Shown here piece by piece: positions 1,818 to 36,722 of a DNA stretch of 64,000 nucleotides. Numbering within the stretch: the stretch's first letter is position 1; each line of letters opens with the position of its first letter. The notes below the pieces were generated by a model. The model did not search any database. It had not been told where the DNA came from and saw only the letters and a list, made by a program, of their open reading frames with translations. A program made the translations under genes and the position numbers. The stretch is from the NCBI RefSeq assembly GCF_019218265.1, contig NZ_JAHUZE010000002.1, forward strand, positions 496,001 to 560,000. Direction: 5' to 3'. This DNA comes from Maritimibacter dapengensis. GTDB taxonomy: Bacteria > Pseudomonadota > Alphaproteobacteria > Rhodobacterales > Rhodobacteraceae.

Positions 1818-1867
1818 CGTATGTATCGCGTATGGAACACGTATGGAAAGCGTATGGCTCATGTATG
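1818..1867 (+). repeat. 11-bp phased CGTATG array upstream of murD
   Basis: CGTATG starts at 1818, 1829, 1840 and 1851, exactly 11 bp apart, and a fifth variant unit TGTATG starts at 1862. The unit consensus is CGTATGGAANR. The array ends 73 bp before the murD start codon. A second array with the same hexamer, period and orientation lies at 35587-35625. Direct repeats at 11 bp place each unit on the same DNA face, as in sites for OmpR/PhoB-type regulators. The binding protein is unknown, and a role in the murD promoter is inference. Confidence 0.85.
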
Positions 1868-1940: not shown

Positions 1941-3338
1941 ATGATCCCGGTGCGAGGGTTTGAAGGGGCGAAGATCGCGGTCTTGGGGCTTGGCCGCTCC
2001 GGGCTCGCGACGGCGAAGGCGCTCGAGGCGGGCGGGGCCGAGGCGCTGTGCTGGGACGACGGGGCCGAAGCGCGGGCACGGGCCGAGGCGGCGGGGCTGA
2101 CCCTGCACGACCTGACCCGGCGCGAGGCGTTTCAGGGCGTCGCGGCGCTCATCACCAGCCCGGGCATCCCGCATCTCTACCCGACCACCAACCCGCATAT
2201 CGCCCGCGCCTATGCCGAGGGCATCCCGGTGGACAACGACATCGGTCTGTTCTTCGCCTCGTTCGGGGCGGGAGACTGGATCACCTTCGACGAGCCGCCC
2301 CGCGTGGTCGCCGTCACCGGGTCGAACGGCAAATCCACGACCTCGGCACTGATCCATCATGTCCTGAGCGAAGCCGGAAAACCGGTGCAACTCGCGGGCA
2401 ATATCGGGCGCGGAGTGCTGGATATCGACCCGCCGGTGAATGGCGAGATCGTGGTGCTGGAACTCTCCAGCTACCAGACCGAGTTGGCCCGCGCTCTGAC
2501 GCCCGACGTGGCCGTGTTCACCAACCTGTCGCCCGATCACCTCGACCGGCACGGCGGGCCCGGCGGGTATTTCGCGGCCAAGCGCCGGCTTTTTGCCGAG
2601 GGCGGGCCGGATCGCGCGGTGATCGGTGTGGACGAACCGGAGGGCTTGTTCCTTGCCGGGCAACTGGCCGAAGGCCCGGGGGACGACCGGGTGATCCGCG
2701 TCTCGGTCGAGCAGAAGCTGTCCGGCCCCGGCTGGCTGGTCTTCGCGCGCAAAGGGTTTCTGTCGGAGAGCCGCAAGGGCCGGCAGGTCGGCAGCATCGA
2801 CCTGCGCGACATCAAGGGGCTGCCGGGCGCGCACAATCACCAGAACGCCTGCGCCGCCTATGCCGTCTGCCGCACGCTGGGCCTGTCGCCCAAGGTGATC
2901 GAAGCGGGGTTCCAGAGCTATCCCGGCCTGCCGCATCGCAGCCAGATCATCGCCGAGAAAGATGGCGTGACCTTCGTGAACGATTCCAAGGCGACCAATG
3001 TGGACGCCGCGCTCATGGCGCTTCTGGCGTTCCGCAACATCCGCTGGATCGTCGGCGGGCTTCAGAAGGATGGCGGGCTCGAGGGGCTTTCGGAAGGGCT
3101 GGGCCATGTCGCGAAAGCCTATGTCATCGGGCGCGAGGCCGAAGCCTTTGCGCGCGATCTGGGCGATGTCGAGGCGGAGGTCTGCACCACGATGGAGACC
3201 GCCGTCGCGCGCGCGATGGCCGAGGCGCAGCCGGGCGACACGGTGCTTCTCGCGCCTGCAGCGGCGAGTTTCGATCAATACGACAATTTCGAGAAGCGAG
3301 GCGAGGATTTCATGGCCTGCGTGAAAGCCGCCTTGTGA
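1941..3338 (+). CDS. murD: UDP-N-acetylmuramoylalanine--D-glutamate ligase
   Basis: MurD adds D-Glu to UDP-MurNAc-L-Ala in the cytoplasm. The 465-residue product has the family length: an N-terminal UDP-binding domain opening with [17 protein letters not shown], a P-loop TGSNGKSTT near residue 127, LELSSYQTE, and a C-terminal domain with VNDSKATN. The ATG at 1941 is chosen because AAGGAG lies 8 bases upstream. ATG codons at 1821 and 1857 in the same frame fall inside or next to the CGTATG array and would give a low-complexity N-terminal extension, so they are rejected. The stop overlaps the next gene's GTG by four bases, implying translational coupling. The long leader with a repeat array suggests a separate promoter here. 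Confidence 0.96.
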
Positions 3339-34993: not shown

Positions 34994-35467
34994 TCAGCGG
35001 CGGGTCAGGCCGATGGCGCGGCCGGCGCGATCGGGCCAGTTGTCGGGTTTGTGGGCCTCGGCGAAGTCCGAGAAGCGGGCGAAGACATCGTCCGGCATCG
35101 GCGCGACACGGGGGCCGGACATGTCGATATGCAATCCCAGCGCTTCGCCGGTGGCGGCGATCCAGCCGTCTTCGTGGTGGATTTCCTGAAAGGTGTGAAA
35201 CCGTTTCTCGTCGTAATCCAGTATCCACGAATGGATCTTCACCTTTGCCCCCAGATGGAGTTCCCGGAGGTAGCAGATGTGAAACTCGGCGGTATATGTG
35301 GTGTGCTGGCGCGTCTGGGCATAGTCCGCGCCGATGCCGATGATCGGATAGAATTCGTCGGCGGCCTGATCGAACAGGACGTTGTAGTAGGCCATGTTCA
35401 TGTGGCCGTTGTAGTCGATCCAGTCCGAGATCACTTCGCGTGTTGTCGAGATATGTGGTTTGCCCAT
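34994..35467 (-). CDS. Thioesterase family protein (hot-dog fold)
   Basis: A 157-residue single hot-dog domain protein. WIDYNGHMNMAYYNVLFD carries the conserved Asp and His region of 4-hydroxybenzoyl-CoA-type thioesterases, and FHICYLRELHLGAKVKIHSWILDYDEKRFHTFQEI forms the central strands. Related proteins hydrolyse acyl-CoA, including betainyl-CoA in carnitine breakdown, but no carnitine gene is adjacent. A GGAGGACC site precedes the ATG. The CGTATG array at 35587 lies 120 bp upstream, so it could serve this gene as well as the PhnA-like gene. Confidence 0.85.
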   Translation of the reverse strand: MGKPHISTTREVISDWIDYNGHMNMAYYNVLFDQAADEFYPIIGIGADYAQTRQHTTYTAEFHICYLRELHLGAKVKIHSWILDYDEKRFHTFQEIHHEDGWIAATGEALGLHIDMSGPRVAPMPDDVFARFSDFAEAHKPDNWPDRAGRAIGLTRR

Positions 35468-35586
35468 CTGGTCCTCCCTGTCGCGCCGAGACTAGGGGCT
35501 CTGGCGCGACCCGCAAGGGAAACGTGGGGTCCGACGGGGTGGCAGCGTCCGGGCGCGTTAACGGGATCGACCCGCGATTTCGACCA

Positions 35587-35625
35587 CGTATGGAACACGT
35601 ATGTATGACGTATGGAATGCGTATG
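35587..35625 (+). repeat. 11-bp phased CGTATG array upstream of the PhnA-like gene
   Basis: CGTATG starts at 35587, 35598, 35609 and 35620, exactly 11 bp apart. Both this array and the one at 1818 are entered as CCACGTATG, and the spacers of most units fit GAANR. Orientation is the same relative to the plus-strand gene. It ends 121 bp before the PhnA-like start and 120 bp from the divergent thioesterase start. The shared period and sequence imply one binding protein for both loci; its identity is unknown. Confidence 0.85.
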
Positions 35626-35670
35626 GCAGAAGGTCGGGCAACGCCGCTGCGCGAAATCGGTTAATCCGGC

Positions 35671-35746: not shown

Positions 35747-36076
35747 ATGACCGAGACCTTGCCTCCGTGCCCCGACTGCGCTTCGACCTTCACCTATGAA
35801 ATGGATGCGCTGTTCGTCTGCCCCGAATGCGGGCATGAATGGACCCCCGAAACCGAAACCCGGGTGCGCGACAGCGTGGGCAACGTGCTTGCAGATGGCG
35901 ATACGGTGACGGTGATCAAGGACCTCAAGGTGAAGGGCTCGTCTTCGGTCGTGAAGGTGGGGACGAAGGTGCGAGGGATCCGGTTGGTCGAGGGCGATCA
36001 CGACATCGACTGCAAGGTGCCGGGGATCGGCCAGATGGGGCTGAAATCGGAATTCGTGAAGAAGGTAGCGCAATAA
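35747..36076 (+). CDS. PhnA/YjdM-like zinc-ribbon protein
   Basis: A 109-residue protein of the alkylphosphonate-utilisation PhnA (YjdM) family. The N-terminal zinc ribbon has [15 protein letters not shown] with a second pair in [10 protein letters not shown], and the C-terminal beta domain has [19 protein letters not shown] and [20 protein letters not shown]. Despite the name, PhnA proteins are not established phosphonate enzymes; the cellular role is unclear. The ATG has AAGGAG five bases upstream. Upstream lie the CGTATG array and the GTGCGCACC pair, so this small gene has an unusually complex leader. Confidence 0.9.
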
Positions 36077-36131: not shown

Positions 36132-36722
36132 ATGGCGAAACCTGCGATGCGTTGGGCAATGGCCGGGATTCTCATTGGCGCGACGGCACTTTCCGGGTGC
36201 GCGAAGCGGGGCGGGACGGAACGGTTCAGCTCGAGCCAGCTAAACTGCATGTCACGCGCGATGTATTTCGAGTCGAACCGGTCGAGCCGGGACGGGATGG
36301 TCGCGGTCGGAAGCGTGGTGATGAACCGCGTCGCATCGGCGGATTTCCCCAACACCGTCTGCGGCGTGGTCGGCCAGAGGGGTCAGTTCGCGCCGGGCGT
36401 CATGTCCAAGCCGATGACCGAAAAGGCTTCGGTCGCCCGCGTGCAGGAAGCGGCGAGCTCGGTTCTGGCTGGCGAGCGTCATCCAAACACCGGAAACGCA
36501 CGGTTCTTCCATGCGCAATACTACCGGGCGAATTACGACAACATGCACTATGTGGCATCGGCCGGTGGCAATGCGTTTTACGAAAAACGCCGCCCCGAAC
36601 TGGTCACGCAAGCGACGCCGCTCCCCAACCGCGAGGGGCTGACCGGCGGTGGTGAAACCGTGCTGACCATGAACGCGCCGCGAGAGCGCCGGGGAATCCT
36701 CGGGCGTCTGTTCGGCGGTTAA
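36132..36722 (+). CDS. Cell wall hydrolase, SleB-like lipoprotein
   Basis: A 196-residue putative murein hydrolase. The N terminus has a hydrophobic signal ending in the lipobox LSGC (Cys near residue 23), so it is probably an outer membrane lipoprotein. The SleB/CwlJ-type hydrolase domain follows: LNCMSRAMYFESNRSSRDGMVAVGSVVMNRV with the catalytic Glu in YFES, then NTVCGVVGQRGQF, ARFFHAQYY and the terminal basic tail. It would cleave peptidoglycan in the periplasm. The ATG at 36132 is chosen because it gives a proper lipoprotein signal. Confidence 0.85.
   Translation: MAKPAMRWAMAGILIGATALSGCAKRGGTERFSSSQLNCMSRAMYFESNRSSRDGMVAVGSVVMNRVASADFPNTVCGVVGQRGQFAPGVMSKPMTEKASVARVQEAASSVLAGERHPNTGNARFFHAQYYRANYDNMHYVASAGGNAFYEKRRPELVTQATPLPNREGLTGGGETVLTMNAPRERRGILGRLFGG

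Follow-up and report, generated by a model that had tools for sequence, protein, structure and literature searches.

The four CGTATG hexamers examined here form one of 32 phased arrays dispersed over the genome of Maritimibacter dapengensis, and on balance we think that a solitary ribbon-helix-helix (RHH) protein of the BrnA type binds the array cooperatively, and we regard the array as a member of a dispersed network of sites on the chromosome. The observations behind this reading are the 32-site network itself with its intergenic placement, even spacing and positions common to different genera, the array in front of the RHH gene, the agreement of the lineage-specific units at RHH promoters with those elsewhere in the same genome, and a protein residue that covaries with the unit.

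The array in the window and its neighbours

In the window, i.e., the whole stretch of 64,000 nucleotides that was analysed, the array consists of four 11-bp CGTATG-N5 units at positions 35587..35630 of the forward strand, with hexamers at 35587, 35598, 35609 and 35620, and an ATTT step (35577..35580, forward strand) lies 7-10 bp ahead of the first unit; both features were read directly from the sequence. A second array of the same set is located at 1818..1861 on the same strand, with CGTATG at 1818, 1829, 1840 and 1851, after which a degenerate unit, ATGTATG, comes next. It lies upstream of murD (1941..3338, forward strand), which was recognized by its Mur ligase domains in a domain search, and both arrays have the leading sequence CCACGTATG in common. 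Direct reading bears out the preliminary description in this respect, as it had reported four hexamers in an 11-bp step, with the leading sequence of the murD array. The distances it gave to the two neighbouring genes are also correct, since the array lies 120 bp from the start (35467) of the divergent gene for a 4HBT_2 thioesterase (34994..35467, reverse strand), while the YjdM/PhnA gene (35747..36076, forward strand) starts at 35747, 121 bp past the last hexamer.

Taken by itself, CGTATG is not enriched in the window (14 occurrences vs. 14.6 expected), and the feature that stands out is the 11-bp phasing, not the frequency of the hexamer. When up to two mismatches were allowed, CGTATG-N5-CGTATG gave seven matches vs. 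3.2 expected, and 5 of 100 shuffled sequences reached seven, so this loose count is only weakly unusual. Two further features of the surroundings were noted. Just downstream of the YjdM gene, a gene at 36132-36722 encodes a cell wall hydrolase (PF07486) whose start resembles that of a lipoprotein, and its nearness to the array may be a coincidence. A GTTAAC/TTAAC sequence is present at 35557-35562, and the same sequence occurs some tens of bases from many arrays elsewhere, which may merely be a general intergenic feature.

The genome-wide set of arrays

The genome of the window (G000) comprises 3,959,618 bases in 20 contigs, with the window at C2:496001-560000. The exact pattern CGTATG-N5-CGTATG was found there in 74 matches at 32 loci, while the reversed pattern gave none; it is this genome-wide count of the exact pattern, not the loose count in the window, that is decisive for the reality of the arrays. 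The genome-wide motif search had been suggested in the preliminary description, in which two loci were known; both are real, and yet two proved a large undercount. A pattern of three units with up to three mismatches gave 81 matches, all inside the same 32 loci and without a single added locus, and the set of sites is therefore sharp, with no degenerate tail. The reversed control of this relaxed search gave 45 matches, which we do not take as a proper null expectation, since a single mismatch per unit is enough for the reversed hexamer to match these very arrays.

All 32 arrays are situated on the four largest contigs (C1-C4), which hold about 3.6 of the 3.96 Mb. Four perfect CRTATG units were counted in 25 arrays, three in six and two in one; with one mismatch allowed, 24 arrays have four units, five have five and three have three. 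The first unit is frequently CATATG, and the consensus of the arrays is ccACgTATGgA.cACGTATGGAA.ACGTATGGAA.GCGTATGG. Upstream of the first unit, A or T makes up 50-84% of the bases at positions -9 to -5 vs. 9-22% at -13 to -10, and an uninterrupted stretch of three A or T occurs inside 12 bp in only 17 of the 32 arrays. Outside the array, the sequence differs from copy to copy.

The candidate binding protein

Comparison of the genes adjacent to arrays revealed one protein whose gene neighbours an array in G000 as well as in G056. The two proteins (141 and 140 aa, respectively) are 39-40% identical and contain the RHH domain PF14384, BrnA_antitoxin, with scores of 35.2 bits in G000 and 44.6 bits in G056; together with the protein of an uncultured Amylibacter (47.8 bits), they lie above the curated cut-off of 26.1. 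In G000, the gene lies at C1:862734-863156, outside the window, with an array just upstream of it. G191 and G102 likewise have an RHH gene no more than about 0.35 kb away from an array, and in the Amylibacter (L119) the gene and an array are neighbours.

Genomes of the family were scanned with three CRTATG units, and 20 out of 295 had a match, while a two-sequence profile built from the G000 and G056 proteins matched 82 of the 295 at an E-value of 1e-8 or better. The profile match was present in 16 of the 20 genomes with CRTATG arrays vs. 66 of the 275 others (p=7e-7). The four array genomes lacking it are G026, G055, G076 and G194, and two of the 16 matches are weak (G081 and G283, E about 3e-9), that of G283 having two in-frame stops. 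The 66 RHH-positive genomes are not simply counter-examples, because G182, G198, G238, G039 and G091 are array-negative by CRTATG only.

In the toxin-antitoxin layout, brnT is adjacent to brnA and upstream of it. The RHH genes of G000 and G056 do not have this module layout, as an array and not a gene lies directly upstream of them, and no BrnT domain was detected in the five neighbours tested in these two genomes. Recurrent neighbours are a divergent upstream gene (12 loci), which encodes a ketoacyl-ACP synthase III in both members that were checked (G056 and Amylibacter), and a downstream gene read as carB (12 loci). The protein had no match in plasmid or phage collections at 1e-6 and no NCBIfam family; sequence comparison with the PDB gave nothing meaningful (best E 0.42), and single-sequence structure prediction of the Amylibacter protein reached a mean pLDDT of 54. 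Among the best matches in the open-access PMC literature, outside which most subscription papers fall, no paper was found that deals with this array or with a BrnA-type protein acting chromosome-wide.

These sequence comparisons suggest that the RHH protein very probably binds the arrays, and autoregulation of its gene through the upstream array is nearly as probable. Candidate response regulators had been considered in the preliminary description; the likely, putative binder is the RHH protein instead. The notion of a shared sequence-specific regulator with a genome-wide network of sites is nevertheless strongly supported by the 32 arrays, with the binding itself putative. According to the mechanism that we propose, one RHH dimer would occupy each 11-bp unit, with four dimers in line on one helical face, and the A/T step would provide an extra contact or a bend. 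The protein would control its own gene and would occupy the 31 other intergenic sites on the chromosome.

In G191, two RHH matches were found, as well as three arrays of a second flavour with GTCGGCA/GTATGCA units, besides the CATATGA type; the second-flavour arrays (L241, L243 and L244) lie on C1 at 1,299, 1,327 and 3,071 kb. As there are two RHH matches in this genome, each flavour may have its own RHH protein.

Lineage-specific units at RHH promoters and across genomes

Upstream regions of 72 RHH genes were inspected, comprising 30 loci from the profile search with its weakest matches left out, 40 regions retrieved by place, G191 and Amylibacter. Within the range of 7-15, the best period was 11 in 55 of the 72 regions, where 8 would be expected by equal chance, and another period was best in the remaining 17. 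A period-11 score of at least 0.75 was reached in 45 regions, while any other period reached it in two. From the end of the array to the start codon, the distance in these 45 is 50-113 bp, with a median of 71. The units at the promoters differ by lineage and include GTATGG, GTCTGGC, GTCGGTATC, ATCGGAC, ATGCACA, GTACAC, CGTCTTCC, GTTCATGC and others.

If the promoter array displays the target of the protein, the same unit is expected all over that genome. Three GTCTGGC units with up to three mismatches gave 80 matches in G182, 19 in G198 and 7 in G046, vs. none in G000, two in G001 and one in G056 (inside a CGTATG array); the reversed control gave three in G182. Likewise, three ATGCACA units gave 114 matches in G238, 87 in G039, 36 in G091, 12 in G004 and 11 in G005, and none in G000 and G001. 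No match was obtained in G237, which carries an RHH gene with the promoter unit GTGCACAC. The reversed ATGCACA control is similar to the CGTATG arrays of G000 and gave 25 matches there, vs. none in the other genomes. Units present at two kinds of RHH promoter, GTCTGGC and ATGCACA, therefore recur genome-wide, with 7 to 114 matches in each of those genomes.

Among 46 proteins whose units were classed by eye, the alignment column most strongly associated with unit class, out of 105 variable ones, was that of G000 residue 58, which belongs to the beta-strand segment of this domain. This residue is R in all 18 proteins with GCAC/ACAC-type units and K in 23 of the 28 others, the exceptions being one H and four R; the units that go with these four have A or T, not G, after TATG. 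Because the K/R difference had been noticed in the first 30 loci, only the other 42 loci offer a fair test, which was performed with an automatic rule. There, R was found in 6 of 6 CAC-type and in none of 17 GG-type proteins (16 K, 1 H; p=1e-5), while the eight proteins with other units had five R, two K and one P; in the full set of 72, 21 rows were excluded for weak arrays. One RHH beta-strand residue apparently tracks the unit type, in a test that ignores shared ancestry, which all columns share.

Spacing and positions common to different genera

Evenness of spacing was evaluated in three genomes. Distances between arrays, computed within contigs, are more even than random in G000 (CV 0.56, p<0.001), and a similar result was obtained for the 41 arrays on the single-contig chromosome of G182 (CV 0.69, p=0.007), after exclusion of a weak site at 3,409 kb. 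The 14 arrays of G056 are unevenly spaced (CV 1.39) because of one 1.38-Mb gap. The orientations of the arrays are mixed, and no replication-strand polarity was seen by eye.

Arrays were also found in orthologous gaps of G000 and G056, with both flanking genes alike at leuC-leuD, L058/L223, L035/L226 and L046/L232, and one flank alike at L055/L237. The array gaps at leuC-leuD and L058/L223 are common to G191 as well, and the one at L035 to G020. Within the genus of the window, three of five loci in G004 and three of three in G005 match array sites of G000. Inspected by eye in 30 genomes, the gap between leuC and leuD, or the region before leuD, holds an array in 10 (G000, G004, G005, G046, G056, G074, G102, G191, G212 and G152, the last with a different upstream gene) and none in the other 20; in G004 and G005, the unit at this place is TGTGCACA-like. 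Between secE and nusG, a CATATG-type array is present at the same place in G005, and six other relatives are without one. Both the presence of arrays and the unit vary between species of one genus. In G001, of the same genus, no phased arrays were detected by 11-bp self-similarity or by three TRTG units in 400 kb around parS, where the one 11-bp hit of the self-similarity search was a run of N, and no RHH profile match was obtained at 1e-8.

Placement relative to genes and the regulon alternative

According to a simple gene caller made for this analysis and trained on the window, all 32 arrays are intergenic. Their gaps comprise 20 tandem, 7 convergent (22%) and 5 divergent (16%) ones, vs. 168 tandem, 36 convergent (13%) and 78 divergent (28%) among the 282 gaps in the retrieved parts of G000 that lack an array and span 80 bp or more. 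Arrays are somewhat commoner than expected in convergent gaps, not significantly (p=0.17), and rarer in divergent ones. Ten flanking genes were assigned by NCBIfam (uvrC, pgsA, leuC, leuD, secE, nusG, dnaE, cobQ, homoserine dehydrogenase and an ammonium transporter), and no common functional theme was visible among these or the others, which were examined by eye.

These data bear on the possibility that the RHH protein regulates transcription globally, with the arrays as the ordinary operators of a large mixed regulon, so that common positions would reflect common regulation. At least one gene start adjoins the gap in 25 of 32 cases, the array ahead of the RHH gene ends 50-113 bp from the start codon as an operator would, and positions are common between genera, all of which is in accordance with such a regulator. 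On the other hand, sites of a promoter-bound regulon should be concentrated in promoter-bearing gaps, and no such concentration was observed (20/7/5 vs. 168/36/78), as convergent gaps are used as expected or more and divergent gaps less; moreover, the flanking genes have no theme in common, and even spacing is not expected of a regulon. We consider this explanation rather unlikely, while still the foremost alternative. The narrower proposal of the preliminary description, a regulon tying cell-wall precursors to the genes next to the array, is not supported, with mixed flanking genes and 7 of 32 arrays in convergent and 5 of 32 in divergent gaps. Even spacing, placement that is blind to genes and cross-genus positions favour architecture, segregation or timing over a regulon, and for chromosome architecture as the function of the network, the chances suggested by sequence data appear evenly balanced.

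Arrays and the replication terminus

A second possibility is that the arrays are nucleoid-occlusion sites, similar to those of Noc or SlmA, where the bound protein would block division over the origin-proximal chromosome. In G056 (C1, 3,328,778 bp), with a parS pair at 3.24 Mb and a perfect dif match at 1.53 Mb, the array-free stretch of 1.38 Mb spans dif (gap p=0.013). The largest gaps of two other genomes contain dif candidates as well: that of G191 (1.74-3.07 Mb) one with two mismatches, at an odd distance of 0.98 Mb from the parS pair, and that of G182 (2.36-2.68 Mb) a dif core at 2,546,363, detected when 400 kb of the 4.16 Mb were sampled. This speaks for occlusion, whereas in G000 the terminus, as located from a weak KOPS-like polarity, falls between about 740 and 990 kb of C2, a range that includes the arrays at 751 and 842 kb. 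Since arrays of the window's own genome lie within the terminus placed in this way, terminus avoidance is not established, and the idea of it as a general rule was dropped after this check; it appears in some genomes and probably not in that of the window. The gap of G056 could also be a variable region, as may be the case for big array gaps in general. For these reasons, we find nucleoid occlusion improbable. As a separate observation, G000 C4 at about 280-440 kb (L434-L442) holds no array and has a G+C content of 58-61%, compared with 61-65% in pieces of C2; it is possibly an acquired island.

Finally, a small mobile or selfish repeat spread by transposition could account for many near-identical copies per genome and for the variation of presence and unit within one genus, but it is highly improbable given the unlike flanks of the copies, their occurrence in orthologous gaps of different genera, the units that track the RHH residue, and an RHH protein without a plasmid or phage match.

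Comparison with known systems

The ParR/parC system of plasmid R1 has an RHH protein on tandem 11-bp direct repeats, which also serve as the promoter operator. The arrays described here resemble it in the combination of an RHH protein with 11-bp direct repeats at a promoter and differ in number and setting, as R1 has one plasmid centromere with an actin-like motor, whereas here there are tens of chromosomal sites. The DNA-binding domain is that of the BrnA antitoxin (PF14384), and the promoter array is consistent with autoregulation as in BrnA, whereas, unlike in BrnA of toxin-antitoxin pairs, the array lies directly upstream and no brnT is found there (G000 and G056).

Among chromosomal systems, SegB of the Sulfolobales is an archaeal RHH chromosome-segregation protein that works with the ATPase SegA; according to PMC12284271, it has single sites in the form of imperfect palindromes, 83.7% of them inside genes, which are most enriched near segAB. 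Both cases combine an RHH protein with sites next to its gene and tens of others scattered over the chromosome, the binding being putative in ours, whereas the arrays are phased 11-bp direct repeats, intergenic and evenly spread, unlike the palindromic and mostly intragenic SegB sites. Among the genes read around the RHH gene, no ParA-type ATPase that could be a partner was noticed. Noc of Bacillus subtilis is a ParB-family protein with about 70 palindromic sites that are absent from the terminus (PMC4331003). Dispersed sites for one sequence-specific protein, in a count of the same order, are again the common trait, with binding presumed for the arrays; the differences are an RHH instead of a ParB-family protein, direct repeats, and an apparent terminus avoidance in some genomes only. 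In the same bacterial family, CenR of Rhodobacter sphaeroides is an OmpR-family response regulator with the motif TGA-N8-TGA (PMC9275681), and its direct-repeat motif near cell-envelope genes is a point of likeness. CenR was rejected as the binder, given this published motif and the CGTATG-N5 units of the arrays.

CGTATG arrays with an 11-bp period were also seen at several loci in Bacteroidales MAGs from horse faeces (L114, L117, L146, L148, L150, L156 and L163). There, the sequence after the array is common to the copies (GGAGGGGGATAGGC...), and it therefore looks like a true dispersed repeat.

Implications

Returning to the network of sites putatively bound by the RHH protein, it can be tentatively proposed, at a little under even chances, that Rhodobacteraceae have a system for organising the chromosome or timing division, in which a BrnA-type RHH protein acting alone marks intergenic sites that number in the tens and are conserved and evenly spaced. 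Its recognition code would have been rewritten repeatedly (TATGG, TCTGG, TCGG, GCACA and others), with every site in a genome changing along with the protein. Few lineages are known to have chromosome systems of dispersed sites. Here there is one candidate gene, the site code can be read, and the family offers natural cases of recoding, so that a role in the chromosome becomes directly testable, as does the question of how a protein carries dozens of sites to a new sequence. The solitary genes also suggest that proteins with the BrnA-antitoxin domain are not always part of toxin-antitoxin pairs.
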